The translations under genes were made by a program, and so were the position numbers. A stretch of 64,000 nucleotides of DNA from Marasmius tenuissimus. Its lineage: Eukaryota > Basidiomycota > Agaricomycetes > Agaricales > Marasmiaceae. The notes beneath the pieces are model-generated. The model saw only the letters and a program-made list of their open reading frames with translations, ran no database searches and was not told the origin of the DNA. Where the stretch lies: positions 2,976,001 to 3,040,000 of the forward strand of contig JAQOTA010000052.1 in NCBI GenBank assembly GCA_029532415.1. Direction: 5' to 3'. Below, one piece after another: positions 5,580 through 57,441 of this stretch; position 1 is the first letter of the stretch; each line of letters starts with the position of its first letter.

Positions 5580-6728
5580 CTATTGAGAAACCAGCCCGAA
5601 ACCACGACGAGGGCCATAGGTACTTGCAACGTTACTGGGGGCTCTTGAAGATGGTGCTCTCGATCGCCTGGACTTCGTTTTGAGTTGCTTTCCCTGCGAT
5701 AGCAGATTAGAACGGGTACATGGGCAGAAGGCGAGGAAGACATACATCGGGACCGACAACTAGGAAACCGTCCACATCCTTTGTACCTCCCTTATCGAAG
5801 GGGGTAAAGCCCTGAGGTGACGTTCAGCTTGGGGAAGGTTCAGAACTTGAATGCATAGCGTACTCACCGCTGAAAGTGTGCTGTTCTGCGTATATCTCGT
5901 CCCACAGGTTTTCTTTGACTGGTAAAACACTCAGAGGTCGGCGACGTACTTGTATGTAGTCTAAAACTCACCGCGAGTGTAGCGCAATCGCCCTCCACTG
6001 CCCCGTTCCGGGATTTATATCTCTGGGATGGGAAATTTAGCCGATGCCACCTATAAAGCCTGGGGAACACGTACGTTTTCTAAAGCTCGTAAACCCTGAA
6101 GCAGACCGGACGCCTTCATGCTACCATTCTCTGCTAACCATTCTTTCGACCTCCTGTGATGCTCAAGGATGATTTCCCGCAGCTTCGACATGGTCGTCTC
6201 GTCAAGAAAGAATCCCGCGTCCAAAGGCATATCCCGCATCCTCCATTTCTTGAATGGCTTCGAGATAACAGTGATGGGTAGAGTGATCAGATATTGCGAT
6301 CCACGAACGCTAGATCCTGGAACTACCCACTCGGGGGTTGAATGAACATGGCGGAGTCTCGTATTCAAGGAAGCCATATCCGAAGGGTTGGTGGTGGATA
6401 CAAGGACGATGAATTCCCTAAATAAGGCTGGTAGCTCTTTGTAAGAGTTCTTATCAAAGGTAGCCATGAGACAGACAGTGAAGGTTTCATCGTCCTTGAT
6501 TGCTGTTATGATACACGGACGGTCTCCAGGTTTGCAACCGCGGTCGTTGTTGGTGTCTCCGAGAAGATGGTAGAAAGGGGCGAGCGCGGATATGCGAATA
6601 CACATGATGTCTCCGACTTGAGGTCCAGATCCGCGTCTAGGTTCGTGAGAAAGAGGAGGGGTACATTGAGGATTCGCACATTCTCGAAGGTTTTCTGCGT
6701 CAGTTTGGGAGGTCTTCCAAAGTTGCAT
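5580..6728 (-). CDS. Cassette protein A1, unknown function
   Basis: Five exons on the minus strand. The first, large exon starts at ATG 6726-6728; four small exons follow whose lengths and phases match A2 and A3, ending in a Ser/Arg/Pro-rich tail (SRRSRAPSSRAPSNVASTYG). The N-terminal part has a Cys pair (ECANPQC) and the conserved core GDIMCIRISALAPFY..LLGD and RPCIITAI. A later conserved exon reads GFTPFDKGGTKDVDGF. No signal peptide or membrane segment is visible. The core GDIxxIxI....RPCIITSI is faintly like the start of PemK/MazF-type SH3 barrels, but I would not assign that fold from sequence alone. It shares a 471-bp promoter with the divergent gene B1. Function unknown; I am sure it is a gene because the splice pattern is conserved in all three copies. 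Confidence 0.85.
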
Positions 6729-7199
6729 AGTAAGAGTGGTAGATCGGCCAGCGAAATGAGCAGTTCGAGAAGAGAGTTCTAGAAAAATGGACAGGTGGCA
6801 TCATATAGAGTCGAATCCCAGAGACAAGGGAAACAAAGGTATGTGGCAGCACGCGGGCAAAGCAGGACTATGGGCTTGTACATGGGCCAAAGCGTGAGCC
6901 AGATAGAGATTGGCATGTGGCATCAATTCAGTCAACAGCACCATCGAAACCGGAAGCATTCGCCGAACTAGACTGTGGCAGGAGGTGGTTCGGGATCAAG
7001 GAGGTTACCCGTGGGAATGTAGCAAGCCTTTGTCTCTCTCCATAACCGTGCACCCGTGCTGGACAACAATGAGCGAGCTCGACCTTTGTCTGACTCACTG
7101 TGGCACGATGGCCGGAAAAGCTACAGCAGATATAAAAGAACGTTCTTGTTCTTTCTCCCCTGCAACACGTCCACCGAAAGCCCCAATCTTCTGACCACC
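6729..7199. promoter_or_regulatory. Bidirectional promoter of the A1/B1 pair
   Basis: This 471-bp divergent intergenic region carries a TATA-like TATATGA about 75 bases before the A1 start (about 6802-6808, minus) and TATAAAA at 7131-7137, 63-69 bases before the B1 start. Just upstream of the B1 TATA is TTTGTCTGACTCACTGTGGC (from 7086), also found before B2 and B3. A second block around 6970-7030 (GTTCGGGATCAAGGAGGTTA) is kept in all copies. Confidence 0.75.
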
Positions 7200-8496
7200 A
7201 TGGAACTCCCGCAATGCGACACAATTGTAGTCTTCAGCATTGACGCTGTTGCAACCGTTGAGCACCTAGAGGACTCACAGCTCACTGAAGCATGCCGAAA
7301 ACTCACTTGTAAGAAGTACGTCGCGATGGTTGGAATGGTACGTGATACTTTATCGTCAGTTGTCCGGATAACTGACTTGGTTTCTTCGGATTCTTACAGC
7401 GGGACCAACCCGGATTCTGGCTAAAAAGGCCCTACCATACGTATGAGTTCAAGCTCATTCATCAAGGTCTACGGAAGAAGGACGAGGAAAAGTGTATCGA
7501 ACCCGAAATGTCCGTCCCCATCCTCCCGAACACGCATCATCCTCTGTCGCGACAACCCCTCAAACCGTCCATACCCCTTCCATGGCAGGATTGCTACGTG
7601 TCTCATCTTTTTGGGGGTAGTGCTCGCTGCCGGAGTACCATGCTCGAGGAGAAGCCAACTCACGTACGTGAGCTCGAATCTGACAACGTTTTTCGGTCAA
7701 CTTTATTGATGGATGAGGATCGGCGGACTCAACAAAGGCGGTTGGAACCGGCTCATGAGGCGCAATGCACTGGAACGGAGGGTTTGATGGACGATGACTC
7801 CGGAGTCGAGTCGGACTATGACTCGGAGGACGAAGATGATCCTGATCAAGAAGGTGCGTCGTATTCCTATTTTAGTTTGTCCGCCAATCACTCATGGCAT
7901 TGCATTTCGACCAGAGTTTGAATTGATCATGTCCATGATCGATAAAGAAAAACTCAAACGCGAAAATCCTGATCGGGAGTTCTATGAAGTACTGCTTGAA
8001 GCGATGGCGAAGGTCAGGGAGGAGTTAGGTCTTCCACCGGACGGAGAGAACTCAACAGAAACAGCTCCTGTGATTGCTCTGGACACGGAGATGTACCAGC
8101 TTCCCGTCTTTAACGTCTCATATGATCTTTCCGAGGTGAATCGTGTGAACGACCCGGAAGATCTCTACGAGGAACTCGATGCCCTCCAAAGGTATGTCCT
8201 TCTGGCCAACTCTCGCTTCAACCCTGACTTTTGGTGCTACAGGCTGATGGGGAAATACAAGGACGGCAAGATGCAGGAGCAGATAGAGAAGGCTCGGCAA
8301 ATCGACGAAGAGTATTTCGCAAACAAAACACAAGGTCCAGTGGCAGGTGCGTCTTTCATCCATCGTCCCATTGCACGTACTCAGACGCCCCGCAAAAGGT
8401 TCCTCTGAACAGCTTATCAGTACACCGAAGAACTCGACACTACTGTCAAGAGTCAAACACTCCCTCAAGAATCTCAAGCGTCTCTTTTGCATGTGA
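7200..8496 (+). CDS. Cassette protein B1, unknown function
   Basis: Five exons (7200-7337, 7400-7853, 7915-8191, 8243-8346, 8399-8496) give 356 aa. The ATG at 7200 is the one shared by all copies (MELPQ..). Visible parts: an N-terminal domain with VAMVGM and RPYHTYEFKLI, the motif EMSVPILPNTHHPLSRQP, then PWQDCYVSHLFGG; a strongly acidic Asp/Glu/Ser stretch (about residues 180-198); a helical, charged region starting MSMIDKEKLKRENP with LGLPPDGE; LPVFNVSYDLSEV; and a basic tail ending LKRLFCM. No signal peptide or membrane helix. The intron positions are the same in B2 and B3. No known family recognised. It faces away from A1 and is followed by F-box gene C1 in the same direction. Confidence 0.88.
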
Positions 8497-8851
8497 TGCG
8501 GCTATTTCGCAATTCGTACACTAAACTACTTTACATTTGTACTATTTGATATTCTCACCATATGTATATGCCTTCGATGTAGCTCGTTCATATACTTGGT
8601 CTAAGTCTTTTTCGCCAGTACAGGTTCACAACGTACGCTTCTCCCAGGCTATGACTGGAAAAAACGGTGACGTCGCCAGTTTAGAGTTGGCGAGCCACGT
8701 CACCTGTGCATACTTGAATTCCAACCACCATCGCCAGATGAAGCTTGCGAGGAAATAGCTTGAGTACAGGCTGATTTTTCCTAAGCAGGTGATTCATTGA
8801 TTGAAGGCAAGTGGTCCCTTACATATCTTCAGTCGCCATTGATAACTGACA
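8497..8851. promoter_or_regulatory. B1 3' flank and C1 promoter
   Basis: From about 8715 the sequence ACTTGAATTCCAACCACCAT matches a motif found about 235 bases before the starts of C2, C3, C4 and the broken C copy. Nothing else coding is seen here. Confidence 0.55.
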
Positions 8852-10333
8852 ATGGAGTACTTGAAGATGGCGCGTCGGTCCAACTTCCCTGTTCGGTCGT
8901 GTCAACCAGATCCATCATATCTTGCCTTTTTCTCACTGCGATTTCCAACAACGCCTTCACATCTCGACAATCTGCCTACAGAGATTCTCACTACAGTCTT
9001 CGAATTACTGCCTCGGGATGGCAGTCGTCTCGCTCTCGCCTCCACAAATAAGCATCTCCGCGACGTGCTAGCTCCCTACATCTTCAGTGCTATCAAGTTG
9101 AACAGTAGCACTCACGAGCGACACGAGTTTGAGCAGCTGGTAAACAAGTACAGACCAACCATTACCCGACTGCATTTCGTGGCATCTATGCCGTATGGCA
9201 GACCTGAGGATGACATCCCTGCCACCCTCCCCCCGAATCACCGTACTCATAAGCGGGACATTCTCAGCTCCGCAGTAGAAAAATCTGACGCTGCCACTGG
9301 TGTTAAAAGTTTCATGACCGACTTTGCACGCGACGCGCTCATGGGGAAGTTGCTACCCAAGGTTACCACCCTTTGCCTTTCGTTCGATTTCGAGTTCAAT
9401 TACGAAGGTGACGAGCTGGACGAGGACGAGGAAACCAACGTATGGGATGACCCAAACCCAACTTCCCCCGAGTGGTCTCACAATATATACGTATTCTCGG
9501 AAGCGGAGACAGCTGAGGATGTACCCAAGAAGGAAGCCAAATACCCTTGGCGTGCGTTGATGGCGCAGACGTGGTTGGCACTCTGTCAAAATAAATTCAT
9601 CACGAAACTCATTGTCCGCGACTTGATACCGAGGAAAACCACGACCTTCGATACAGAGGACTGGCGGGGCTTCCTCGGGCGTCTTGAAACGCTGGAGCTG
9701 AGCGTCTGGGGAGATAGCCAGGAAATTGGACTTGCCATTCTAGAGGGGTACGGGGACTTCGTACGCAAGCTGGACAAGTACTTCCTCCAACACCTGACAC
9801 AGGTACAGCGCCTACTACTTATCGCCTACCCGGATTGTCCCTTTGGGAGGGCTTCTGAGGATCTCCCTAATCAGGACGTCACGTTTTTGGACTGGGCCCT
9901 CTCGAGAGAACACCTTCCACATCTACGACTCCTCGAGCTTTGTAATGTCTGTATCAACAAGAAGCTAGCGGACTTTATTCTCAGCAGAAGCGCGACATTG
10001 CACCACGTACGGCTACTTGATTGTCACTGCGAGAGTACTAGTGACTTTGCCGATGCGGAATTGATTTCGTGGGCCATGTTCTTCACTCACATTGACCATA
10101 ACAAAACCCAACTCAAGGGATTATGTGTCACGTATGAACGAGGCTCAGACGCAGCTATGCTCCACGACGAGAATCGACTGAAGGGGAAGGGAGAGGACAT
10201 GGTTTTTTCATACGGCGACATGGATATTGAGATAGGGTTTAGGGCAGATGACGAGACGATCAGAGAGAAGTATGAAGAAAGGATGGACTTGGTTGCATAT
10301 CACAAGCTGATGGATACTATCAGACAGAATTGA
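8852..10333 (+). CDS. Cassette F-box protein C1
   Basis: Single-exon gene of up to 493 aa. F-box core at about residues 36-80: HLDNLPTEILTTVFELLP..SRLALASTNKHLRDVLAP. Such proteins bind Skp1 and bring substrates to SCF ubiquitin ligases (family knowledge). The rest is a family-specific domain with the conserved block YPWRALMAQTW.ALCQN and KTTTF....WR.FLGRLETLEL, an acidic loop, and a charged C-terminus with KYEERMDL. Compared with C2-C5, the paralogous start codon is missing here: where the others have ATG before P-P-x-P-P-H, C1 reads FPTTPSH with no Met. The ATGs at 8852 and 8867 lie in what is 5' leader in the paralogs, so the true N-terminus is uncertain. C1 is the most divergent copy together with C5. 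Confidence 0.85.
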   Translation: MEYLKMARRSNFPVRSCQPDPSYLAFFSLRFPTTPSHLDNLPTEILTTVFELLPRDGSRLALASTNKHLRDVLAPYIFSAIKLNSSTHERHEFEQLVNKYRPTITRLHFVASMPYGRPEDDIPATLPPNHRTHKRDILSSAVEKSDAATGVKSFMTDFARDALMGKLLPKVTTLCLSFDFEFNYEGDELDEDEETNVWDDPNPTSPEWSHNIYVFSEAETAEDVPKKEAKYPWRALMAQTWLALCQNKFITKLIVRDLIPRKTTTFDTEDWRGFLGRLETLELSVWGDSQEIGLAILEGYGDFVRKLDKYFLQHLTQVQRLLLIAYPDCPFGRASEDLPNQDVTFLDWALSREHLPHLRLLELCNVCINKKLADFILSRSATLHHVRLLDCHCESTSDFADAELISWAMFFTHIDHNKTQLKGLCVTYERGSDAAMLHDENRLKGKGEDMVFSYGDMDIEIGFRADDETIREKYEERMDLVAYHKLMDTIRQN

Positions 10334-10728
10334 GAAGGAGACCCAGAATTGAGGGAACATCTCTCGAGAGCGTAGGTCTAGTGACAAGAGTCGATACCCA
10401 GTAACTTAACGGGAGATACATGCCTGTCTTGAACAAAGAGGCCAACATATCCGGGCGATCCATGGTGCTGATTTAATAATGCCCAAGTTGAATTGAAACC
10501 GATATCGTCGGTGACTGGGGGAGTCTTGCGACGACAGGCTGTGTTCCTCAATCCAGTCTTCAGAGCGAATAGCTCGTTAACCAAAGATGGATGGTCCTTG
10601 TATATTGCCAGCCGGCACAGCTGATTATCAACAAGAGATTTCTCGAAGGTGCCAAATCGATCCAAGTTTCGCCCGTCCAGTTTCGCCGTCCATTGCATCC
10701 CTAGTATCCCTTCCCATCATAGCCAACA
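10334..10728. promoter_or_regulatory. Duplicated F-box (C-type) promoter in front of a broken copy
   Basis: From about 10460 this matches the promoters of C2 (from about 11210) and C3 (from about 16550) nearly throughout: GCTGATTTAATAATGCCC, the AAACCGATATCGTCGGTGACTG stretch (AACCACCATCG elsewhere) and the CTCGTTAACCAAAG stretch. Confidence 0.7.
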
Positions 10729-10890
10729 ATGCTACCGCCGCCCCCACACCTCGAAAACCTGCCTCTGGAGCTTTTGACCCACATCAATAAGTCGCTTCCC
10801 CTGGAGGCTTGGACAGCCGTCTCGCTCCTGCATCTACGAGTTCCAATCTTCGCAATTCGCTGGGGCCTTTCATATTCAACGGTTGTATAG
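10729..10890 (+). pseudogene. Truncated F-box gene of the C family
   Basis: ATG at 10729 opens MLPPPPHLENLPLELLTHIN, the expected start of a C protein, but about 70 bases in there are roughly 8 extra bases relative to C2/C3 (around CTGGAGGCTTGG) that shift the frame. The C-type sequence can be followed in another frame up to about 10880 (..SSNLRNSLGPFIFNG) and then stops abruptly; the remaining roughly 400 codons are absent. The sequence joins directly to a leftover A-gene 3' flank. This looks like a deletion fused across a tandem cassette array. Confidence 0.8.
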
Positions 10891-11110
10891 GGATACAAGT
10901 TAGATTAGCGTATCTATTGCGGCGGACGGAGTGGTCTTTCTCACACAACTTGAACGGAAACAGAAAGCAGAAACGAGCATAGAGCATGTGTGGCGTGTGA
11001 ATTGATACATGTGTAGATCGCAACATACAGGGCATAGCAAGACGCATGAAGTTGAACAATGGAGGTCGGACATATCGATACATGGGACTGATATTATACC
11101 ACCTAATGTG
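10891..11110. repeat. Orphan A-gene 3' flank
   Basis: Matches the region just below A1 (5330-5540) and A2 (13030-13265), including ACATGTGTAGAT, AAGACGCATGAAGTTGAACA and CATATCGATACATG, but no A coding sequence follows. It is probably the scar of a deleted A-B pair. Confidence 0.7.
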
Positions 11111-11473
11111 TTTACCTTTGACCTAGCTCGCTCCTGTAGCACAACGTGTATTCCGGAATTCATGAGCGGCGCAGAGTGTGTTATTGGGCGTCTGTACATA
11201 ATCATGTGGGCGCTGATTAGATAAATGCCTACTTGAGTTCAAACCACCATCGTCGGCGACTGAGGAAGTCTTGCGACGATACGCAGTGTCTCTCAATCGG
11301 GTCTTCAAAAACAGTGGCTTGTTAATCAAAGGTAAATAGCTCTTGCATATTGTGAGAGCTGGCACTGATGTTTGACAAGAGTGCTCGAAGGTGACAAATC
11401 TATCCAACTTTCCCTCGTCTAGTCTCGTCATCCGACACTGCATCCCCAATACCCTATCAAATCGTAGCCAACG
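11111..11473. promoter_or_regulatory. C2 promoter
   Basis: About 60 bases of unmatched sequence, then the C-family promoter block from about 11200: GGCGCTGATTAGATAAATGC, AAACCACCATCGTCGG at 11238, TTAATCAAAGGTAAATAG, and a leader up to the C2 ATG. No separate gene is seen. Confidence 0.6.
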
Positions 11474-12844
11474 ATGCCTCCACCGCCGTCACATCTTGAA
11501 AATCTGCCTATAGAACTTTTGATTCACATCAACGGGTCACTTCCCTGGGATAGCCGTCTCGCTCTTGCATCTACGAGTTCCAATCTCCGTAGCTCACTGG
11601 CCCCTCTCATATTCAACTCCATAAAGATCACCAGCAATACTCCAGGGGGGCAGGATCTCGAACGGCTGGTAGACATGTATGGTTCACTCATCACAAGGCT
11701 CCATTTCGTGGCATCTATGTCGAATGGCAGACCTAGTGACATCCTCGCTCCCACCAGCGGCGGCAATGGCGTCCCTGACCAGGATGACCCTAGCTCCCAA
11801 GAGAGCGCTGACAACGCTATCCGAAGGTTCATGACCGACCTTGCACACGACGCACTCACAGGGAAGTTGTTACCCAAGGTTACGACCGTTTGCCTCTCGT
11901 TCGATTTCGATTTCGAATCGGCCGAAGATGTATGGGACGATCCAGACCGGGTGACCGCTTTCCCCGTTTCTATATGGGTATTCGCAGATGAGGAGACAGA
12001 CGACGATGTGTCAATGAAAGAAGCCAAATGGCCATGGCGCGCGCTGATGGCGCAGACATGGTCGGCGCTATGTCAAAACAGTTCCATTACAAAACTTTTG
12101 GTCCTTAACTTGATTCCAAAGAGAACCACGACTTTCGATTCAGACAACTGGCGGGACTTCCTCGGGCGTCTGGACACGCTGGAACTGAGGATGTGGGGAG
12201 GGAGATCGGATTTCATGTTCGGAAATGAGGCCAATACTCTGGAGGGGTACCTGGGATTCGAGGCGAAGCTGGGCGAGTACTTCTTCCGACACCTGAATCA
12301 GGTGCAGCGGCTGCTACTTGGCGCTTATTTGGAGTCCCCCTTTGGAGCGAGAGAGGAGGGCCAAGGGGAACATGATATCGCCCTCCCACTTTCGAAAGAG
12401 TGCCTCCCCCGTCTACGGTTCCTCGAGCTTCACAACATCTTCGTCAGCAAAAGACTGGCAGATTTTGTTCTTAGTAAAAGCGAAACCCTGGCTGAAGTGC
12501 GGCTGCACGACTGCCATGCGAGTACCTACGACGAGATGAAAATCTCGTGGGCTGCGTTTTTCACCCACCTCAGCCACCACAAATGTGAACTCAGGGATCT
12601 ACACGTCACATACGAGCAAGGTGACGCCTCTGCCATGATCTACGATAAGGAAAATCGACTGAAGAAGGAGAATGAGGAGGATGAAGTGTTTTCGTATGGG
12701 GAGTTATATGGTCGTGGGTATTTCTTGGCGGATGCAAAGAAAATGTGTGAAAAGTATGAAGAAAGGAGGGACTTGGATGCGTATCGCAAGTTGATGGAAC
12801 TTGTGAGCAGCAACGCGAAGGATGTGGCTCAGGGGTACTTGTAA
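11474..12844 (+). CDS. F-box protein C2
   Basis: Intronless, 456 aa. F-box at about residues 6-50 (HLENLPIELLIHINGSLPWDSRLALAS). The middle block (WPWRALMAQTWSALCQNSSITKL; KRTTTFDSDNWRDFLGRLDTLEL) and the tail with EEDEVFSYGELYG and KYEERRDLDAYRKLMELV are shared with C3 and C4; C3 is its closest relative and even its 3' flank resembles C3's (AAGGAACG.AATCAGGA). A likely adaptor of an SCF ubiquitin ligase; the substrate-binding part is not a recognisable LRR, WD40 or Kelch array. It has no A-B pair of its own upstream, only the scar at 10.9 kb. The start is supported by the shared leader and P-rich N-terminus. Confidence 0.9.
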   Translation: MPPPPSHLENLPIELLIHINGSLPWDSRLALASTSSNLRSSLAPLIFNSIKITSNTPGGQDLERLVDMYGSLITRLHFVASMSNGRPSDILAPTSGGNGVPDQDDPSSQESADNAIRRFMTDLAHDALTGKLLPKVTTVCLSFDFDFESAEDVWDDPDRVTAFPVSIWVFADEETDDDVSMKEAKWPWRALMAQTWSALCQNSSITKLLVLNLIPKRTTTFDSDNWRDFLGRLDTLELRMWGGRSDFMFGNEANTLEGYLGFEAKLGEYFFRHLNQVQRLLLGAYLESPFGAREEGQGEHDIALPLSKECLPRLRFLELHNIFVSKRLADFVLSKSETLAEVRLHDCHASTYDEMKISWAAFFTHLSHHKCELRDLHVTYEQGDASAMIYDKENRLKKENEEDEVFSYGELYGRGYFLADAKKMCEKYEERRDLDAYRKLMELVSSNAKDVAQGYL

Positions 12845-13270
12845 AGGAACGAAATCAGGAAGGGAGAAACTCTGGGCAGGGGAAGTATTCCGAGAAAACA
12901 AGCTCAAGTTTCTGTGCGCTCGGAATGGTGTGAATCATACATATGCAGGAATTTATTGCGAAATCTTGAGATACCACACGCTCTTACTATTGAAGACGTT
13001 GGATGCTCATTCGAGATACAAGTTGAAGTGTGTTTATTATCGCGATGGGCTGTGTGGCCTTCTGGCATGCAAACAGTTGAAGCAGACAGAAAGCAAAAAC
13101 GAGCCGTTAGTACTTGAAAGCATAGACCATAGAGCACGTGTGGCGTGTAGCGTATTACATGTGTAGATAGAGCAGAATATATAGGGCGTGGTAAGATGTA
13201 TGAAGTTGAACAGCGGGGGTCGGACATATTGATACACGAGACTGAGATGGAGACGAACATCGTGTCTCTC
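12845..13270. repeat. C2 3' flank and A2 3' flank block
   Basis: The first 60 bases match the flank after C3 (18193 on). From about 12960 it matches the A-gene 3' flank (ATACCACACGCTCTTACTATTG; AAGATGTATGAAGTTGAACA; GGTCGGACATATTGATACA). C2 and A2 therefore end tail to tail across one repeat unit junction. No other gene is seen. Confidence 0.65.
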
Positions 13271-14400
13271 CTAGCGGACCTGACGATTGTGGGTGAAAAA
13301 GCTTGCGATGGTACTGGGCGCCCTTGAAGATGCGGTTCTTGATCGCCTGGACTTAGGTTTGACCTTCTTGCCCTGCGATAATGTCAGTGAATTAGAGTCG
13401 GTACTTAGGCAGAAAGCGAAGGAGGCTTACGTCGGCACCTACGACTATGTAACCATCCACGTCTTCTGTACCTCCCTTGGCGAACGGGGTGAAGCCCTAA
13501 GGTGGCTGTAAGCTCAGGAAAATCAGACGTATATGGTGGACTTACTGCGGAAAGTACACTCTGCGCGCCTCTCGTTCCCCAGGTTCTCTTTGACTAGTGA
13601 AACGTTCAGAACTCAACGGGAAAGCTTGAATTGACCCAGGAACTCACCGTTAGGGTAGCGCGATCATCGTCCCCTGGTTTGCTCCTAGATCTGTACGTCT
13701 ACAATCGAGAAATCAACATCTACCGTTCGAGTAAAAACCTGGAAACGCGCACTTTCTCTAAATTTCGTAGGGCTCTGAGCATATGAGGTACTTTGATACT
13801 CCCATTTTCTGAGAGCCATGTTTTTGAACGCTCTTTATGCTCCATGATGATCTCTCTGAGCTTCGTCATGGTGTCCTGGTCAAAGAAGTATCCTGCGTCC
13901 CAAGGCATGTCTGCCGATCTCCATTTTCTGAATGGCTGCAAAGCAGAAACAACGGGTAAGGTAACGATGTACTGCAGTCCCCCACCAGATCCTGGAACCG
14001 TCCATTCTGGAGTCGAGTGGATGTGACGGACTTGCGTGTTCGTGGAAGTCTTGTCCGACGGATGGGTGGTAGGTACAAGGACGACGAACTCCTTGATTAT
14101 GTCTGGTAAGCTTCCAAAGGGATTCTTGTCGAATGTGGCCATGAGGCAGACGGTGAAGGTTCCATCGCCCTTGATTGATGTTATGACGCACGGGCGCTCT
14201 CCAGATTTGCAGCCGTGGTCATTGGTGTCTCCGAGCAGACGGTAGAAGGGAGCGAGTGCGGATATTCGAATACAAACGATGTCGCCAACTTCGGGTTCTG
14301 TTCCGCATCTAGGATTGTGTGAAGGAGGCGGAGTACATTGGGCGTTCGCACATTCTCGAGGGTTCTCTGTGTCGGTTGAGGAGGTTCTGTGGGGTCTCAT
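13271..14400 (-). CDS. Cassette protein A2, unknown function
   Basis: Second A paralog, five exons. The first exon is large and starts at ATG 14398-14400, matching the starts of A1 and A3; the frame stays open for 52 more codons to 14556, but that stretch contains the TATATAA box and is not conserved as protein, so I reject the longer start. Exons 2-4 (17, 16 and 22 codons) have the same lengths as in A3 and read TYRSRSKPGDDDRATLT, SKRTWGTRGAQSVLSA and GFTPFAKGGTEDVDGY; the last encodes KSRRSRTASSRAPSTIASFF. The core GDIVCIRISALAPFYRLLGD and RPCVITSI is intact, as is the Cys pair CANAQC. The C-terminal tail is shorter than in A1 and A3. Function unknown. Confidence 0.87.
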
Positions 14401-15057
14401 CGTAAGGAGTGGTGGGTCGACCAGCGAAGAGAATAGTGTAGGGAGAGTCTGTTGAAGGAATCGAGCAGTGGCATTATATAGAACCAGCTCTTGAAGACAA
14501 CAGACCTGGACGTATGTGGCAGAGCACGGACAAAGCAGCACCGTAGGCCAAACCATGTGTCAAAGCGCGAGCCAGGATAGGAACGTGACATGAATCCAGG
14601 CGAAAAAAATCGGAAGCCTTCATCGAAGGAAGCCTCATACAGTAAGACACGGTAGGCCGGTCAGCAAATGGGGTCAGAACTGATAGAGAGTTTTGAAGAA
14701 AGCGACGGCAGAGTCAATCCCCAAAGATCTAGACAGGATGAAGCAGAAGTACAATGAGCCATATTGGGGTACCTGGATACTGTTCTGTGGCATCGAATCA
14801 ATGGGCAGGAACGGAGGAGCCCGAAATGGAGTGTGGCAGAAGGTGGCGGTTCGGGATCAAGGAGGTTACGCGTGGGAACCCGGCAAGCCTTTGTCTTTCT
14901 CCTCTATCTCCATAACCGTGCTGAACAATGAGCGAACCTGGCCTTTGTCTGACTCGCTGTGGCACGATGGCCGGAACAGTTATAGTAGCTATATAATGAA
15001 TGTTCTTATTCTACCCTCCCCGCACCACGACCACCGTAAATTCCTACCACTTCGAGC
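14401..15057. promoter_or_regulatory. Bidirectional promoter of the A2/B2 pair
   Basis: This is a 657-bp divergent region. TATATAA lies at about 14474-14480 (minus), 74-80 bases before A2, and at 14990-14996, 62-68 bases before B2. The block TTTGTCTGACTCGCTGTGGC (from 14944) and GTTCGGGATCAAGGAGGTTA (from about 14848) match the other two pairs. The extra length relative to A1/B1 lies mainly around 14590-14800. Confidence 0.78.
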
Positions 15058-16366
15058 ATGGAACTACCACAATGCGACACAATCGTAGCCTTCAGCATCG
15101 ATGCTGTTGCAACCGTCGAGCATCTAGAGGACCCAGGCCTCACCGAAGCATGTCGCAAACTCAGCTCGAAGAAGTATGTCGCAATGGTTGGAATGGTGCG
15201 TGCCACTTGCCATTAGTTGTCTGGTTGATACTGACTAGATCCCTTGAATCCTTATAGCGGGACCAGCCCGGGTTCTGGTTAAAAAGACCCTACCACACGT
15301 ATGAGTTCAAGCTGATCCATCATGGACTGCGGAAGAAGGATGAGAAGAGGTGTACCGAGCCTGAAATGTCGGTTCCCATCCTTCCGAACACACACCATCC
15401 TCTATCGCGACAGCCCCTCGCACCCTCCATACCCCTTCCGTGGCAGGACTGCTATGTTTCTCATCTCTTCGGGGGTGGTGCTCGTTGCCGGAGTATCATG
15501 CTCAAGGAGAAGCCAGTTTACATATGTGAACTCGAATCTACAAACGTGTTTCAGGCGACTTTGTTGATGGATGAGGATCGGCGGATTCAGCAAAGGAAGT
15601 TGAATCCGGCTCAGGAGGCACAATTCACTGTGATGGGGGACTCGGCGTACGACGACTCTGCAGAATCAGACTACTATGACTCTGATAATGAAGAGGACGA
15701 TCCTGAATTGGAAGGTGCGCCGCTTGTGTGATATTTCTCCCCCTCCGCCAAAGCCTCACATGCCTTCTTGGCCAGAATACGAACGGCTCATGTCCATGAT
15801 CGATCAAGAGAAACTTCGGCGCGAAAACCCCGGCCTGAAGTTCTATGATGCATTGGCTGAAGCGTACGCAAAGCTCAGAGAGGAACTAGGGCTTCCGCCG
15901 GACGGAGAGGACTCGACAGAGACGGCCTCTGTGTGTACTCAGGACTTGGAGATGTACAAACTTCCCGTCTTCAACGTCTCGTATGATCTTTCTGGGGTGG
16001 ATCGCGTGAACGACCCGGAAGACTTTTATGAGGAACTCCAGGCCATTCGAAGGTTTGTTCATCTGTTCATCTTTCACTTCAGGTTCTTGACCGCTTTTCC
16101 ACAGGCTGACCGGGCAGTACGAAGAGACCAGGATGCAGCAGCTAATAGAGAAGGCACGGCAAATTGACGAAGAGTATTTCGCAAACAAACCTCAAGGTCC
16201 AGTGGCAGGTGTGTCTTTTCGATGTCGTTTATTACCCCGTTGCGCTGACTCGGATATTTCACGAAAAGGTTCCTCTGAACAACTTCCCGTTCCATCGAAG
16301 AACGCAACATTACTATCAAGAATCGAACACTCATTCACAAATTGCAAGCGTTTCTTTTGCATGTAA
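15058..16366 (+). CDS. Cassette protein B2, unknown function
   Basis: Five exons with the same intron sites as B1. It begins MELPQCDTIVAFSIDA, keeps YVAMVGM, RPYHTYEFKLI, MSVPILPNTHHPLSRQP and CYVSHLFGG, has an acidic stretch rich in Asp and Tyr (about residues 178-200), then MSMIDQEKLRRENP, LGLPPDGEDSTETAS, KLPVFNVSYDLSGV, and ends CKRFFCM. All exons stay open, so I see no damage. Synonymous-looking changes outnumber the protein changes in these motifs, which suggests the protein has been under selection, but I have not counted them. It is divergent from A2 and followed, about 440 bases later, by F-box gene C3. Confidence 0.88.
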
Positions 16367-16809
16367 CATGAATAATACCATTTTGTACATGACTTTCCAT
16401 TACAATACCTAATACCATCATGCATACCTTGATCTAGTATGTTCATATAGCGAAATATATGATTTATGGGCGCGTCGTTCAAGCAACGTTAACGTTTCAG
16501 GAGCATGAGATAATAAGCGCCGCCCGGGTTCAGTCATACAAAAGCGTGAGCGCTTTATTCAATGAACACCTCACTCAAACTTGAACCACCATTGCCGGTG
16601 ACTGGGGGCGTTGCAAGGACTGGCTCTGTCCCTCAATTTATCTTTCATAGCGAGTCACTAGTTAACCAAAGGTGAATAGTCCTTACATATTGTCCGCCGG
16701 CACCAGTGATTAACAAGAGAGTGCTCGAGAGTCGAAGGTGGCAAATCTATTCAAGCCAGTCCGCCCGTTCAGTCTCGTTCGACGTTATCCTTTTGCATCC
16801 TAGCCAACA
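16367..16809. promoter_or_regulatory. B2 3' flank and C3 promoter
   Basis: The last 260 bases carry the C-family promoter block: AACTTGAACCACCATTGCCG at about 16577, CTAGTTAACCAAAGGTGAATAG, then the leader to ATG 16810. No other gene is seen. Confidence 0.6.
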
Positions 16810-18192
16810 ATGTCCCCAACGCCGCCACATATCGAAAATCTGCCTCTGGAGCTTTTGATTCGCATCAACGAGTCACTTCCCTGGGATAGCCGTCTCGCGC
16901 TTGCATCTACAAGTTCCAATCTTCGGAGTTCACTGGCCCCTCTCATATTCAATTCCATAAAGATCACCAGCAATACTCAAGGGGGGCGGGACCTTGAACG
17001 GCTGGTAGACAAGTACGGTTCATCGACCACAAGGCTCCATTTCGTGGCATCCATGTCGAGTGGGATGCCTAGTGACGTCCTCGCTCCCACCAGCGGCGGC
17101 AATGGCGTCCCTGTCCAGGATGACCATAACTCCCAAGAAAGCGCTGATACTCCCAACGCTACCCGAAGGCTCATGACCGACCTTGCACACGACGCACTCA
17201 CGGGGAAGTTGTTACCCAAGGTCAAGACCGTTTGCCTCTCGTTCGATTTCGACTTCGACTCCGACGACGTACAGTGGGACGACGGAAACTGGATAACCGC
17301 TGCCGATGACACAACTTCTATATACGTGTTCACGGAAGAGGAGGCAGCTGACATTGTGCCAATGAAAGAAGCCAAATATCCATGGCGTGCGCTGATGGCG
17401 CAGACGTGGTCGGCGTTGTGTCAAAATAGTTCCATTACGAAACTTATCGTCCTCAACCTGATTCCCAGGAAAACCACGACTTTCGACCTGGACGACTGGC
17501 GGAACTTCCTCGGACGCCTGGAAACGCTGGAGTTGAGGATGTGGGGAGGAGACAATGGGGCCGGATGGGAGGCCAATACCCTAGAGGGATACATGGCGTA
17601 CGAAGCCAGGCTAGGAGAGTACTTCTTCCGATACCTGAATCAGGTACAGCAGCTGTTGTTTGTCGCCTACTCGAGTTGTCCCTTCGGATCGACTGAGGAG
17701 GGCCAAGGGGACGACGTTGAGCACGATGTCGCCTTCCCACTTTCGAAAGATTACCTCCCCCGTCTACGGTTCCTCGAGCTTCACAACATCTTCGTCAGCA
17801 AGAGACTGGCGGACTTTATTCTTAGTAAAAGCGCAACCTTGTTCGAAGTACGGCTGCACGACTGCCATGCGAGTACCTACGACGAGGAGAAAATCTCGTG
17901 GGCTGCGTTTTTCACCCACCTTGACCACAACAAATCTCAACTCAGGGAGCTGGATATCACGTACAAACAAGGCGACGCAGCTACCATCGATGAGGAATGT
18001 CGACCGAAGAAGGAGAATGAGGAGGATAGGGTGTTTTCGTATGGGATGTTGGATGATAAGTATGGGTTTTTCATGGCGGACGACGAGCAAATCTGCGAAA
18101 AGTATGAAGAAAGGAGGGACTTGGATGCGTATCGCAAGTTGATGGAACTTGTGAGCAGCAATGCGAAGGATGTGGCTCGGGGGCACTTGTAA
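16810..18192 (+). CDS. Cassette F-box protein C3
   Basis: Intronless, 460 aa. F-box at about residues 7-51 (HIENLPLELLIRINESLPWDSRLALAS). Conserved middle block YPWRALMAQTWSALCQNSS, KTTTFDLDDWRNFLGRLETLELRMWGG, then YLPRLRFLELHNIFVSKRLADFIL, KISWAAFFTHLDHN, and the tail EEDRVFSYGMLDDKYGFFMADD. It is closest to C2 and, in its last third, to C4, where long DNA stretches are almost the same (for example CTTGACCACAACAAAT); a past gene conversion between C3 and C4 is possible. Predicted role is SCF adaptor, by F-box only. It is the third gene of the A2-B2-C3 cassette. Confidence 0.92.
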   Translation: MSPTPPHIENLPLELLIRINESLPWDSRLALASTSSNLRSSLAPLIFNSIKITSNTQGGRDLERLVDKYGSSTTRLHFVASMSSGMPSDVLAPTSGGNGVPVQDDHNSQESADTPNATRRLMTDLAHDALTGKLLPKVKTVCLSFDFDFDSDDVQWDDGNWITAADDTTSIYVFTEEEAADIVPMKEAKYPWRALMAQTWSALCQNSSITKLIVLNLIPRKTTTFDLDDWRNFLGRLETLELRMWGGDNGAGWEANTLEGYMAYEARLGEYFFRYLNQVQQLLFVAYSSCPFGSTEEGQGDDVEHDVAFPLSKDYLPRLRFLELHNIFVSKRLADFILSKSATLFEVRLHDCHASTYDEEKISWAAFFTHLDHNKSQLRELDITYKQGDAATIDEECRPKKENEEDRVFSYGMLDDKYGFFMADDEQICEKYEERRDLDAYRKLMELVSSNAKDVARGHL

Positions 18193-36695: not shown

Positions 36696-37705
36696 ATGGC
36701 CTACTGCGAACGATGCGAACGCTCCTTCGTCAACACAAACGCTCTGGAACAACACAAACGATTTTCGTCTGCCCACTGGGAGTGCGGCGACTGCGATAAG
36801 GACTTTCTCACTCGAGAAAGGCTTCAGCAACACTGGGCTGATAGCCCTCGTCACATTTACTGCGACCAATGCGAGTGGGTTGTCGACGATGCTGATGATC
36901 TCGATGATCTGGAAGATCATTACGTCTTGGACCATCATTATTGTCGCAATTGCGAGGAGTTCTTCGACGATGAGCAGGAGTTGCAACGCCACTTCAGAAA
37001 CTCCGACAATCACCATTACTGTCGCAAGTGCGATAGGTTCTTCAGCACCAAGCACGGGTTGAAGCAGCACTACGAGGGTTCCAGCAAACATCATTATTGC
37101 GTCGAATGCGAACGTGACTTTCGAACTGAGAACGGTCTTGAACAAGTACGTGGTCCAATCTCTCACTTCGTCGTTGCTGACCAGCACTCCGCTCTTCAAC
37201 GCAGCATCGTAAGTCAGCTTTGCACCAGTCACGAAACATTGATTGTTGTGCGGAAGGATGTGATGATGTCTTTGTATCCCAAGGTCATCTCTACCTTCAT
37301 CTTGAGTATGGCAACTGTCCCTCCGGGATCAACAGAGCCATTTTGAACCGCGAGTTCGAATTACACGACAAGGGTCACAAATTTCTTGTGCCCTTGCATT
37401 GGCTGATGAACAAGCCTAACTGTACTTCTGTCGACATCGGCAGATGCTGGGACGGGAGTGCTTACCAGTGTCCTTACTGTGAGGATACTTTTAGCACAGC
37501 CGCAGCGCTGCGCCAACATCTGGCTAGCCCACGCCATGAGGCGAAGGTGTATCGCTGCCCCTCGAGCGCGTGCACCAGTGATGGGTTTACAGCGCTCAGT
37601 GCCCTCCGGCAGCACATCGACAGTGAGACTTGTGATGCTCATAAGCACACTCGTACTGTCAAGGCTCTGGATAGGATCGTTAGGGATATCACGAGGTCGA
37701 TGTGA
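36696..37705 (+). CDS. Multi-C2H2 zinc-finger protein D1
   Basis: Two exons (36696-37145, 37205-37705) give 316 aa built almost wholly of zinc fingers of the form C-x2-C-x12-H-x5/6-H with very short linkers: CERCERSF, CGDCDKDF, CDQCEWVV (with an acidic Asp run), CRNCEEFF, CRKCDRFF, CVECERDF, then after a spacer CPYCEDTF and a last CPSSAC finger. The single intron falls inside the sixth finger just before its first zinc His (..ENGLEQ/HRKS). The acceptor at 37204 is supported by paralog D2, which has an intron at the same place. The protein could bind RNA or DNA; the double-stranded-RNA-type spacing (two His five or six apart) resembles JAZ/U1-like fingers, an inference only. It has no activation or other domain. 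It sits between dynactin and the third A-B cassette. Confidence 0.9.
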
Positions 37706-38297: not shown

Positions 38298-39600
38298 CTA
38301 CATGCAAAAGAAACGCTTGAGATTCTTGAATGAGTGTTTGATTCTTGACAGTAGTGTCGAGTTCTTCGGTGCATCGATGAGTTGTTCAGAGGAACCTTTT
38401 CGAGAAATGTCTAAATACGTGTGACGAGGCGTGGAACGATGATGAAAAGATGCACCTGCCACTGGACCTTGGGGCTTGCCTGCGAAATATTCTTCATCGA
38501 TTTGCCGAGCCTTCTCTATCTGCTCCTGCATCTTGTCGTCGCTGTGTTGGCCCAACATCCTGTAAAACAAGAGGTCAGGTAATGAACCAAAGTCGGTCAG
38601 ATGAACGTACCCTCGGAGGACCCGGAGTTCCTCGTAGAAATCTTTCGGATCGTTTACACAGTCCACCTCGGAAAGATCGTAAGAGACGTTGAAGACGGGA
38701 ACCTCGTACATCTCCAAGTCTCGAGTACACACAGAAGCTGTTTCTGTCGAATCCTCTCCGTCCGGCGGAAGACCCAACTCCTCCCTAACCTTCTCGTACG
38801 CTTCCGATAGCACCTCATAGAACTCCCGATCGGGGTTTTCGCGTTTGAGTTTCTCTTTATCGATCATAGCCATGATTCTTTCGTATTCTGTCCGAGATTC
38901 CACGCCGCTAGTAAATATCGGAAGAAATACAAGAGGAATACGACACACCTTCTTGTTCAGGATCATCTTCGTCCTCCGAGTCATAGTCCAACTCAGCAGA
39001 ATCATCTTCCATCAAGTCCCCCATTCCAGTACATTGTGCCTCCTGAGCCGGGTTCAACCTCGTTTGTTGGGTGACACGATCCTGATCCATCAGTAACGTG
39101 CACTCAAAGGCATTAGTAGACTCGAGCTCACGTATGTGAGCTGGCTTCTCCTCGAGCATGACGCTCCGACAGCGAGCAACACCCCCGAAGAGGTGGGAGA
39201 CATAGCAATCCCCCCAGGGAAGTGGTATAGATGGTTCGAGGGGTTGTCGCGACAGAGGATGGTGCGTGTTCGGGAGGATGGGGACCGACATTTCGGGTTC
39301 GATGCACTTCTTCTCATCCTTCTTTCGTAGACCTTGATAAATCAGCTTGAAAGAGTACGTGTGGTAGGGTCTTTTCTGCCAGAAGACAGGCTGGCCCCGC
39401 TGTAAGGATTCGGAGAACCTGGTCAGCTTCGAACAGACAGCTAACGATAAGGTGGCACGTACCATTCCGACCATTGCGATGTACTTTTTACAACTGAGTT
39501 TCCGACATGCTTCAGTAAGCTCTGAATCCTTTAGATGCTCGATAGATGCAACAGCATCAATGCTGAAGGCTACAATTGTGTTGCGTTGTGGGAGTTCCAT
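38298..39600 (-). CDS. Cassette protein B3, unknown function
   Basis: Third B paralog, on the minus strand. ATG at 39598-39600 (MELPQRNTIVAFSIDA). The exon layout is the same as B1/B2, and the second exon again carries RPYHTYSFKLI, MSVPILPNTHHPLSRQP, CYVSHLFGG, and an acidic tract (LDYDSEDEDDPEQEG). Later parts: MAMIDKEKLKRENPDREFYE, LGLPPDGEDSTETAS, VPVFNVSYDLSEV, IEKARQIDEEYF, and the C-terminus LKRFFCM. All exons are open. It is closer to B1 than B2 in the MIDKEKLKRENPDREFYEV segment and closer to B2 in the STETASVC segment, so the three copies may have exchanged sequence. It is divergent from A3. Confidence 0.88.
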
Positions 39601-40291
39601 ACTGCAAGTGGTTGAAATTCTCGGCGGATGTGGTACAGAGAAAGAAAAAACAAACAAGACAACCTTAATTTATAGCGAGAGTACCAGCCATTGGGCCACA
39701 GTGAGTCAGACAAAGAACGAGCTTGCTCATTGTTGTTCAACCCCGGTATGGAGATTCATGGAAGAGGAAGACAAAGGCTCGCCAGGTTCCCACGGGCAAC
39801 CTCTTGATCCCGAACTGCCACCTTCTGCCACACTCTGGTTCGAACGCTTCCGGCTTGTACGTCCCTATCGACTGACTCAATGCCACATTATAGTCTTCAA
39901 ATGGCTCATGCTCTGTCCCATCGCTTCTTGTCGCGGAAAATCTGCTTCTCTCGTCCATCTCTCTGTAATCAACTGTAATAATGCCATCACCGAAGTTTTT
40001 ACAAATTCTCTACCGATTCTAACTTATCTACTGGCCGACCTACCACCTCTCACCATCAGACTCAGTCAGACGAATTTTTTTTGTCCTGCTGAATCCGTGC
40101 CACATTCCAATATCGACCTGGCTCACGCCCTGGCCCATGCTTTGGCCCATGGTGTTGTTGTGCCCGTGTTTTGCCACACACGTCTGCGTCTGTTGCTTCT
40201 GGAAGCTGCTTCTATATAATGTCATTGCTCGATTTTTCTCCCAAACACACTCGCATAATTCCTTTCGCTGGCCGACCCAACGCTCCTTACG
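39601..40291. promoter_or_regulatory. Bidirectional promoter of the B3/A3 pair
   Basis: This is a 691-bp region in the opposite orientation to the other two pairs. TATAAAT (minus, 39668-39674) lies 68-74 bases before B3; TATATAA at 40213-40219 lies 73-79 bases before A3. On the minus strand TTTGTCTGACTCACTGTGGC lies at about 39699-39718, as before B1 and B2, and GTTCGGGATCAAGAGGTTGC at about 39798-39817 is also kept. Confidence 0.78.
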
Positions 40292-41447
40292 ATGAGACTC
40301 CGAAAAATCTCCCAAACCAATGAAGAAAACCCTCGAGAATGTGCAGACCCTCAGTGCATCCCTCCTCTCTCTCACGAACCTAGACGTGGGGCGGAACCCA
40401 AACCCGGTGATATCGTTTGTATTCGCATATCTGCACTCGCGCCTTTCTATCATATGCTTGGAGACACAAAAAACGACCGGAGCTGCAAGCCTGGAGACCG
40501 CCCGTGCATCATAACGTCGATTATGGACGATGGAACCTTCAATGTCTGTCTTATGGCCACCTTCGACAAGAACTCTTACGAAGAATTACCCGACGTAATC
40601 AAGGAATTCATCGTCTTCGTACCCACTACCAACCCTTCCGACAAGACCTTCTTGAGTACAAGACACTGTCATATTCACACAATCCCGGAATGGACAGTAC
40701 CAGGATCTGGTGTCTGTGGCTCGCAATATCTCATTACTCTCCCCATCAACTCTTCCTTGCAGCCTTTCAAGAAATGGAGGACACCGGATATGCCCTCAGA
40801 CGCGGGATTCTTCCTTGACAAGGCTACTATGTCGAAGCTGAACAAGATTATTCTGGAGCATGATAAGAGGTCAAAAGAATGGTTTAGAGAGAATGGCAGC
40901 ATGAAGGTGTCTGGCTTGCTCCAGGCATTGCGACGCTCAGAAAGGGTGCGTGATCTTGAGGCTCTACGAGTGGCAATAGCTGACCTTCCGATCTCAGGCG
41001 TATAAATCTAAGAACAGGACAGCGGAGGGAGATCGTACTACCCTTGCAGTGAGTTCAGGCCCGTTTTGACTACCTCGTTGATTTCTGAACTTCTCACTAG
41101 TCCAGGCGAACCTGGGGAACGAGAAACACACAAAGCGTGCTTTCTGCGGTAAGTCTACCATGGGCGATTGACTTACTCGAGCTGACCGCCACCTTAGGGC
41201 TTCACCCCCCTCGCTAAGGATGGCACAGAAGACGTCGACGGTTTTAAGCTTGTCGGGTCAGACGTGAGACCTCTCAATATTCCACTCGTGTACCACCCAA
41301 CTCTGATCTCGCTCACATCTATAGGGAAAGCAGATTAAACCCAAGTTCAGGAGATCAAGAGCACCATCTTCAAGGGCACCCAGTACTGTTGCAAGCACTT
41401 ATGGCTTTCGTCGACCAGCGCCAGCCTTCGGGTTGGTCCACGAATAA
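40292..41447 (+). CDS. Cassette protein A3, unknown function
   Basis: Best-resolved A copy. Exons 40292-40945, 40998-41048, 41101-41148, 41198-41263 and 41325-41447 give 313 aa, with every junction in phase 0. Exon 1 holds the Cys pair CADPQC, the core GDIVCIRISALAPFYHMLGD, RPCIITSI, VCLMATFDKNSYEELP, EFIVFVPTTNPSD, HTIPEWTVPGSG and a charged helix (MSKLNKIILEHDKRSKEW). Exons 2-5 encode AYKSKNRTAEGDRTTLA, SRRTWGTRNTQSVLSA, GFTPLAKDGTEDVDGF and a basic Ser/Arg/Pro tail (KFRRSRAPSSRAPSTVAS), which could be a nuclear-localisation or RNA-binding tail. I do not recognise the family. Four introns at matching sites in A1 and A2 confirm the structure. Confidence 0.9.
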
Positions 41448-42022
41448 GAGGGGTACAACCGTAATCGCTCCTGTCCCCCAGTCTCATGTATCGATATGTC
41501 CGACCTTCGCTGGTCAATATGCGTCTTTCCACGCGCTGTATGATTCACTGCTATCTATCTGTATCTACATGTATTAATTCTCGCGCTGAATATGCTCTAT
41601 GCTCATGGATCATGCTTTCATTTCTTGTTCGAAATACAAACTTTGTGAAGTCTACCGTCGTTCGAGCTCAACAAACGTTGGCTCCAGTCTGTTTCTATTG
41701 ATTGTTCCTAGCCGAAGAATTCAACAGCGACGTAACCGCAGCAATTTGAATGGCAGGCTCAGTACGTCACCGTACTGCTTGAACTCGAACTACCACCGTC
41801 GGTTGAGTCTTACGTGAGGAGACAGCTCACTGGACATAGGTTTGTTTTCAATCTATCCTGGGTCAAGCTTCAACTTGGACGTTCGTCTGTTTTCAATCGG
41901 AGGCGAGTGTTTGCTTACTGTCAGCGAGGATTGACATCAATGATCAACAAAACAGTGTTCGACGGAAGCATTGCTCTCACCGTTTATCGCATCCGCAAAC
42001 CCTCTCATTTTATCTCTCGGTG
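41448..42022. promoter_or_regulatory. A3 3' flank block and C4 promoter
   Basis: About 41480-41640 is the A-gene 3' flank in the reverse direction (CATGTATCGATATGTCCGAC; TATGCGTCTTTCCACGCGCTG..). From about 41778 the C-family promoter motif appears (CTTGAACTCGAACTACCACCGTCGG), about 245 bases before the C4 ATG. Confidence 0.65.
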
Positions 42023-44019: not shown

Positions 44020-45109
44020 GAGAGCTTCGACACGAGCGACAAGAAAAATCGAAATCGAAATCCGAAACCGAAAATCGAAACCGAGATCGAAAGTGAGGTC
44101 AAAAATCGAAAATGAGGAGTTTTTTCTCTGACTTTCGATTTCCGTCGGCGCTTTTGATTTCATTGATGTAGTTCTCCGTCCGCTTCGCTTGGTCTGCCGT
44201 ATTTGAATAGCATTCTAAATCATATTTGGCGAATAGACCATTCCCTCGTATAAAATCGATGTAGCTGGGACCGTTGGACAGTCCTTTTCTTCCCTACGTG
44301 CCCGTGCGTGTGGGCAGACCCCGTCAACTTATCTACTCCACTACTGTTTCCTTATTCATTCCACTACTAGTATAGCCTAAAGCCTAGCTTGTATCGTAGT
44401 CAGAACAATCCCTCTTTCCATTTTACCCACCTAGCTCAAGTCAGTATCAACACTGCACTAAGAACCTAATCCCAATTTGAAAGTAGGACTCTACAGCACA
44501 TCGCGTGCGGCATATATCGCCAATTTACTGATGACTTTACTGGTGACATTATTGAAGGAGTGTCGGCTTATAATGCCATTGAAAGGACCTTTTAGGCCAC
44601 TTAAGCGTGAATGCCTACCAAGAAAGGGTTTTTCAAGGCCCTTGTAAGGCGTCAAACTTGCTTATCTGTAGAGAAACATTACATTGAAAAGCCTTGTATG
44701 GCTTTTCTGGAAATTTGCGACAGTACATTTTGGAGTGCTCAGCGCTCAGTTAAAGCTGAGGGAGATATATACTGTGCCAAACACTTGTAGGTCCATAGTA
44801 GTAGGCATATAAAGAAGAAAATGGGGTATACAAGGTCGAGGGAAGAGAGTTATTGAACTTGGTTGGGCTAGATTGAGAGTTCAATACATATTACCCGACT
44901 ACAGAGACACGACGCAAGACGGAGTTGCGCCTCCCGGGTCATGACACATGATGACGGCCCGCAGACGGAGGTCGGGAAGGAAATCGAAAGCAGAGAGAGG
45001 AAATCGAAAGTATCGAAATTGATCCATTACTTTCGATTTTGAGCCCCGACTTTCGATTTTCGATTTCGATTTCGGTTTTTTTGGGGTCTGTCGCTGGTGT
45101 CGAACTACT
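44020..45109. mobile_element. Non-coding DNA element of 1,090 bp with inverted-repeat ends and 9-bp target duplication
   Basis: Flanked by a perfect 9-base direct repeat, GATTGGGTA, at 44011-44019 and 45110-45118. The ends are inverted copies: left TTCGACACGAGCGACA (44026-44041), right, read on the minus strand, TTCGACACCAGCGACA. Inside each end follow runs of CGAAA/TCGAAAT words, then a second pair of related inverted stretches (about 44120-44185 and 44945-45025), so the terminal repeats are about 150-170 bases long. No open frame of note lies between, so it cannot encode a transposase. Long terminal inverted repeats with a 9-base duplication are typical of Mutator-like elements (family knowledge), so a non-autonomous MULE is the best guess. 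It splits the promoter of C5. Confidence 0.8.
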
Positions 45110-45118
45110 GATTGGGTA

Positions 45119-45190
45119 ACACATTGGACGGTCCACCTCATTATCCATTACATCTCCAGCGTCCTTTCCTATTCAGTGCATCTTCTAAAC
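45119..45190. promoter_or_regulatory. Inner part of the C5 promoter, cut off by the element
   Basis: Removing the element and one target copy brings the GGCACTGATGATCAA stretch to about 118 bases before the C5 ATG; the same words lie about 105 bases before the C3 ATG. The 72 bases left between element and ATG contain no clear TATA box. Confidence 0.6.
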
Positions 45191-56864: not shown

Positions 56865-57157
56865 CCTGCTAACGCTTACCGAGATCAAACAACTACAAAA
56901 GGTCCCAAGTCCCTCGCAATCCGACTCCCGTACTGAAATCAAGCACAACAATGAAATTGATCAGGAGAATCTACAGTATTAGCCCCTAAACATACAGTAA
57001 ATAGTACCGAATAGAAAATAAACGACAAATACCATCCTTCCGATTCACTGGGCCACCAAATAGGGTTCCACTTCACGAACGCACCGACAAGACCACACTT
57101 TTAACGAGCTCGCATGACCTTGTGCATACCGCTGGCCACTCTCGAGACTTGTAGTGT

Positions 57158-57401: not shown

Positions 57402-57441
<40 letters not shown>

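Follow-up and report, generated by a model that had tools for sequence, protein, structure and literature searches.

A head-to-head pair of Marasmius genes, multiplied along one contig, probably encodes co-expressed partner proteins

Gene pairs with a bidirectional promoter, of which a human example is known, have a short common intergenic region and are probably co-expressed, and the partners of toxin-antitoxin systems carry opposite charge. The HD1/HD2 mating-type pairs of mushrooms, as far as the available sources describe them, consist of two unlike divergent genes, possibly in strain-specific copies. F-box genes are expanded in Agaricomycetes, and 210 of them are annotated in Flammulina filiformis according to the accessible part of its description (PMC7567395). 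The locus of Marasmius tenuissimus analyzed here, built around two divergent genes termed A and B, resembles each of these systems in part. It has the short common intergenic region and the probable co-expression of bidirectional-promoter pairs, but differs from them in being formed by two orphan genes, in its five-fold multiplication and in its private conserved stretches. As in HD1/HD2 pairs, two unlike genes diverge (5/5 pairs) and may have strain-specific copies, but the A and B sequences scanned against Pfam have no homeodomain match at E ≤ 10. With MazF/PemK toxin-antitoxins it shares a weak fold resemblance of a low-confidence B model and oppositely charged partners, but there is no sequence match, and A and B are eukaryotic, spliced and divergent. 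An amplified F-box-like family (C1-C7) recalls the expansions in Agaricomycetes, but this likeness concerns a neighbour, termed C, and not the A/B pair. A literature search for divergently transcribed genes in Marasmius returned no papers, and among the matches listed for fungal MazF all were bacterial as judged from titles and the beginnings of abstracts.

The host assembly comprises 71,056,785 bases in 70 contigs, and the window, meaning the whole 64,000-nucleotide stretch analyzed, corresponds to positions 2976001-3040000 of contig C5. A genome search found five intact A/B pairs, all on this one contig and all head to head on opposite strands (5/5). Three are in the window (Table 1); pairs 4 and 5, at C5:3186219-3189149 and 3190620-3193571, lie 170-210 kb from these and have the same five-exon structure. 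The original prediction that A and B stand head to head in three units, with open exons and matching intron sites, was confirmed where it had placed them: A1-A3 and B1-B3, whose splicing was modelled by comparing copies, each have five exons with GT-AG splice sites, open frames, and intron positions and phases that match between copies. A single GC-AG intron occurs, in B5. Deposited proteins are identical to the spliced models over the full length for B2, B3, B4 and A5, and deposited A4 and its model differ solely by one extra first Met. For B5, the deposited P0019 (304 aa) matches at 293 of 293 aligned residues, and the spliced model is longer (359 aa). Full-length deposited A1, A2 and A3 of this genome are absent among the matches, so these three are represented solely by the spliced models. 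A1 is identical to one deposited protein over 218/218 residues, A3 to AAF712_013331 over 236/236 and B1 to AAF712_013319 over 314/314. Repeats between copies extend over hundreds of bases at ~60-90% identity, far above chance, and in blastn the pair-to-pair homology spans ~3.0 kb, from just beyond the A stop to just beyond the B stop.

Table 1 Features of the A/B locus and its neighbours, numbered from the first letter of the window
Feature	Position	Strand	Remarks
A1	5580-6728	-	Exons 6075-6728, 5972-6022, 5868-5918, 5746-5811, 5580-5693; 311 aa; basic orphan; spliced model, GT-AG, all introns phase 0
Divergent promoter region, pair 1	6729-7199	.	471 bp; five-way alignment
Conserved stretch 2, pair 1	7003-7035	+	Pattern matches 5 genome places, all A/B pairs
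Conserved stretch 1, pair 1	7085-7111	+	Pattern matches 5 genome places, all A/B pairs
B1	7200-8496	+	Five exons; 356 aa; acidic orphan; spliced model
C1, neighbour	8846-10333	+	F-box-like/LRR-like intronless ORF; F-box-like 18.9 bits, below cut-off
Truncated F-box gene start, leftover	~10464-10880	+	blastn to C2 and C3 starts
A-3'-flank-like stretch, possible remnant of a lost pair	10955-11097	-	blastn 72-76% to 3' flanks of A1, A2, A3
C2, recent sister of C3	11468-12844	+	F-box-like; dS 0.35 to C3; tree support 100/100
A2	13271-14400	-	Five exons; 304 aa; spliced model
Divergent promoter region, pair 2	14401-15057	.	657 bp; conserved stretches 14864-14896, 14944-14970
B2	15058-16366	+	Five exons; 357 aa; spliced model; = deposited P0014, PM082_003793
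C3, neighbour	16804-18192	+	F-box-like intronless ORF; sub-threshold F-box match
C2H2 zinc-finger gene	36696-37705	+	Tail to tail with B3
B3	38298-39600	-	Five exons; 355 aa; spliced model; = deposited P0013, PM082_003801
Divergent promoter region, pair 3	39601-40291	.	691 bp; conserved stretches 39688-39714, 39769-39801
A3	40292-41447	+	Five exons; 313 aa; spliced model
C4, A side of inverted pair 3	41840-43411	+	F-box-like intronless ORF; sub-threshold F-box match; sister C6 on contig C23
C5, beyond C4, adjoins no pair	45023-46612	+	F-box-like ORF; sub-threshold F-box match

The intervals between A and B measure 471, 657, 691, 466 and 482 bp in pairs 1-5. In the five-way alignment, 215 of the 428 ungapped interval columns are invariant across the five copies, a larger share than in the A introns (68/201), the B introns (73/217), the A fourfold sites (20/71) or the B fourfold sites (34/90). 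Two segments of the interval, each conserved in 26 of 30 columns, are the best of all 30-column segments. With up to three mismatches allowed, both stretch patterns matched five places each in 71 Mb, namely the five pairs, and the reversed control matched none; the patterns were built from these same pairs, and the informative part is that no other genome site matches. The conservation of the interval, together with stretches exclusive to the pairs, supports a common control of the two genes.

A is a basic protein of ~310 aa (pI 9.2-9.5, 5/5), and B an acidic one of ~356 aa (pI 4.7-4.8, 5/5), in which a long helix is predicted and the C-terminal tail is basic. A Pfam scan of the exon ORFs and proteins of both found no domain, PDB profile searches gave best E values of 0.29 (A) and 1.6 (B), taken as noise, and homology between A and B was rejected by profile comparison (probability 0.3%, E 0.19). 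The predicted folds, for which the alignments held 15 of the 17 B matches (without P0022 and P0023) and all 12 A matches plus two window exons, are unreliable, with a mean pLDDT of 52 for B and 32 for A, whose AlphaFold model was too poor for a structure search. In VIA-align, the low-confidence B model showed a weak, non-significant likeness to MazF barrels, with chromo-barrel, auxin-response-factor and Tudor entries close behind; as far as the model goes, B may have at most a general SH3-like barrel. Membership in MazF/PemK was rejected by sequence, the PemK_toxin profile (PF02452) being unmatched at E ≤ 10 in the scanned A/B ORFs and proteins; this profile also had no match at E ≤ 10 in the whole genome, and three of 14 control genomes were positive. 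A mating-type locus was rejected as well: A and B have no homeodomain, the three Homeobox_KN matches of the genome lie on contig C28 and at C5:1.56 Mb, away from the A/B pairs, and phospholipase C, Raptor and dynactin are among the genes that separate the arrays.

Neutral evolution was excluded by the dN/dS check suggested with the original prediction. Nei-Gojobori values, which are whole-gene averages, were 0.17-0.29 for A (10/10 comparisons), 0.15-0.29 for B (10/10) and 0.21-0.39 for C (21 comparisons, for which the F-box copy with a frameshift, 2971.6-2973.2 kb, was set aside), supporting A and B as a conserved unit under purifying selection. Between pairs, dS runs from 0.38 to 1.29 in A and from 0.43 to 0.83 in B, so the pairs are read as old copies that have been maintained. 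In separate CDS trees of the five copies, A1 and A5 are sisters (100/99), as are B1 and B5 (90/93); B2 and B4 group with support (97/95), and the corresponding split among the A copies is not resolved. Larger protein trees were built from 14 A rows and 11 B rows, omitting copies of included sequences (A P0001, P0002, P0009 and P0010; B P0013-P0015, P0018 and P0019) and also the B matches P0023 and P0025-P0029. In these, A2 groups with M. infestans PQX77_012175 (98/97) and B2 with PQX77_012174 (99/99), which have consecutive locus tags. B1 is nearest M. infestans P0016 (90/98), whereas A1 groups with A5 and P0003 and not with P0011, the neighbour of P0016. These groupings do not add up to one clean history of whole pairs.

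At the sensitivity of the search, the 12 proteins related to A were found only in three Marasmius assemblies (one source not shown), and a further protein search that also included distant A-like sequences returned only Marasmius proteins already found, 11 at E ≤ 1. The 17 proteins related to B come also from M. crinis-equi, Paramarasmius palmivorus and Moniliophthora. For Paramarasmius and Moniliophthora, which have distant B relatives, no A was found at limited search sensitivity, suggesting that B may exist without A. In M. infestans, two of seven A matches have a B match at the next tag (010183/010184 and 012174/012175), and five A matches and one of three B matches are without an adjoining partner, which may be missing or unannotated. 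The present genome also has distant A-like genes on contig C44 (964465, 966116) and distant B-like genes at C5:3245872 and 3293988, for which no partner was found by A and B searches or by eye in 10-kb stretches. Common occurrence of A and B apart from each other, named with the original prediction as evidence against it, is thus seen in part, for distant relatives, but the close copies here are paired in 5/5 cases.

A second assembly named M. tenuissimus (AAF712) carries 003421 (A) and 003422 (B) under consecutive tags. Identity to the five Bs of the present genome is 69-79% for its B proteins 013323 and 003422, and its A 003421 reaches no more than 76%; the best genome places for all three are the known copies, with no close copy here. 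In one exon, protein 013323 is 87% identical to B1, and another part of it is 81% identical to B2; its tag number probably places it near pair 2, in the stretch from B1 to A3. The cluster of deposited proteins that contains B5 has a second member, of unstated source. Judging from these sequences, AAF712 appears to hold at least one A/B pair and one B that are absent here, a comparison that partial models or a two-nucleus assembly could mislead; the A/B copies may thus vary between strains. PMC11053350 describes AFHP-31 as M. infestans, assigns the lineage of the West African isolate GHA37 to Marasmius sp. 1 / M. aff. tenuissimus and names this lineage as a cause of thread blight of cacao.

The original prediction added C as the third gene of each unit, and a large F-box-like ORF does stand beside each pair in the window, but the three units do not have one layout: the order is A-B-C in units 1 and 2, and unit 3 has its pair inverted relative to C, with the F-box gene after A3 and the zinc-finger gene after B3. 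The identification of C as an F-box protein held to the extent that all five window C ORFs have an N-terminal F-box or F-box-like match (5/5), but every match is below the cut-off, the best (PF00646) scoring 20.4 vs 20.5 bits; a profile of the five ORFs found no sequence relative in PDB at E ≤ 1. In the genome, this family has seven intact members, one frameshifted member and fragments, and outnumbers the pairs. Copies lie at C5:2969.5, 2971.7-2973.1 (frameshifted), 2984.9, 2987.5, 2992.8, 3018.0 and 3021.0 kb and at C23:2492.8 kb, and searches with A and B found neither on contig C23, the home of C6. Around pairs 4 and 5, a tblastn search of 30 kb (C5:3174501-3204500) with the seven intact copies detected no F-box gene at E ≤ 1e-3, and a repeat in which the copies of the window and of C23 served as positive controls gave no match even at E ≤ 1. 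In blastn, the F-box homology forms separate ~1.8-kb blocks, apart from the pair blocks. The CDS tree joins C2 with C3 (100/100) and C4 with C6 (100/99), with C3 and C4 in one clade and C1 distant; A1+A5 and B1+B5 are sisters, yet of pairs 1 and 5 only unit 1 has a C. A gene related to the C2H2 gene next to B3 is also tail to tail with B5, and a remnant follows B4. The best explanation is that the F-box and zinc-finger genes belong to families multiplying on their own.

A selfish or incompatibility unit of three genes with C as SCF adaptor would agree with C adjoining three of the five pairs, twice in the order A-B-C, and with the leftover F-box start beside the A-flank remnant (10464-11097), which hints at a lost similar stretch in the array. 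However, pairs 4 and 5 have no C within the 30 kb searched, C occurs without pairs on contig C23 and at 2969-2973 kb, unit 3 is inverted, and the A/B and C trees conflict, so C is regarded as a separate neighbour and not as a member of the unit. With C beside only 3/5 pairs, one of them in another layout, the A-B-C unit was rejected, and a selfish role for it is very improbable. Leftover pieces had been predicted and were indeed found, the two in the window and A pieces at C5:3185367-3185954, the sole broken lone A found in the genome; the loss of whole pairs is possible. The predicted decay is seen among C and A pieces, but none of the five pairs is half-broken. Selection on the unit was borne out by dN/dS values of 0.15-0.29, but self-promotion was not: the inverted-repeat search, the purifying selection and the pair-2 relative in M. 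infestans gave no sign of drive, self-promotion or mobility, and meiotic drive, as read from the sequence, is not supported. A mobile element with the pair as its cargo, to which the ~3-kb homology blocks might point by stopping close to the 3' ends of both genes, is judged more doubtful still. Among the arms listed for the five units (seed 8, minimum 12), terminal inverted repeats are inconsistent and no inverted arms at both ends are common to all (the 5 longest pairs for 4 of 5 units), the scanned A and B sequences have no transposase-like Pfam match, and the close copies were found on one contig only and diverged long ago (A dS 0.38-1.29).

It is conceivable, though unlikely, that the promoter is merely shared, that A and B do not act together and that the array reflects ordinary tandem or segmental duplication in a lineage-specific expansion. 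Both genes are lineage-restricted and without a known domain, this region holds further amplified families, F-box and zinc-finger genes among them, the distant A- and B-like genes seem to be unpaired, and five of the seven A matches of M. infestans have no adjacent B match. On the other hand, all five close copies have kept both genes intact in head-to-head orientation, their promoter stretches are constrained, and a single broken lone A was found here. Quite improbably, the two genes form a recognition or poison-antidote pair that is polymorphic between strains and whose strain-specific copies have to match. The fuller version, a multi-copy and strain-polymorphic self/non-self or poison-antidote array of non-homeodomain type, in which a basic effector or recognition protein A and an acidic partner B with a MazF-like barrel would be expressed from a private bidirectional promoter and their copies reshuffled by exchange, is a slimmer prospect again.

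The earlier observation is therefore largely right, its three-gene idea is wrong and the two-gene pair is real; the unit is the divergent A/B pair rather than three genes. The explanation favoured here, held with somewhat better than even confidence, is that A and B are co-expressed partner proteins from one bidirectional promoter, probably forming one complex, and were multiplied by old pairwise duplication. The two genes would be read in opposite directions from one promoter region of 0.5-0.7 kb, whose two private conserved stretches may be the binding sites of a regulator that activates both genes at once. Being oppositely charged, A and B could be stoichiometric partners, probably in one soluble complex, charge being no proof of binding. 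The copies would have arisen by old duplication of whole pairs along one contig, followed by birth and death, with some partner loss or exchange between copies. Both the joint switch and the partnership of the proteins are suggested by the anatomy of the pairs.

In summary, a vaguely defined selfish three-gene unit is replaced by a two-gene unit comprising two orphan families and two promoter stretches unique within the genome. Mutual binding of A and B, combined with variation between strains, would make them a paired system of a kind new to mushrooms; otherwise they would be a clear example of orphan genes that are co-regulated and were multiplied together.

C2H2 zinc-finger genes adjoin copies of B, the partner of A in the five head-to-head orphan pairs, and a further relative is present at window 47254-48184. 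Intron 3 of B5 (contig C5:3193256 region) is of the GC-AG type, whereas that of all four other B copies is GT-AG.

Features beside B copies and other repeats and ORFs in the window (C5, the contig containing the window)
Feature	Position	Arrangement
C2H2 zinc-finger gene	window 36696-37705	tail to tail with B3
C2H2 zinc-finger gene, kin of B3's neighbour	C5:3194012-3194848	tail to tail with B5
C2H2 zinc-finger remnant	C5:3189654-3189781	after B4
Repeated stretch, three copies	window 51535-52675, 57120-58446, 61862-63145	
Family-2 peroxidase ORF	window 49861-50490	

Two of the three copies of the repeated stretch are 91-95% alike. The initial 29-37 codons (window 45023-45110) of the long F-box-like C5 ORF, lying 5' of its likely start, have short dispersed matches on contigs C34, C63, C23, C5, C30 and C11.

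Two tandem A-like genes are located at C44:964465-966517, sharing 31-35% identity with A3 over the matched part, and no B relative was found near them. In AAF712, another assembly named M. tenuissimus, the B protein AAF712_013323 (P0021) appears to be a mosaic, some of its parts resembling B1 and others B2.
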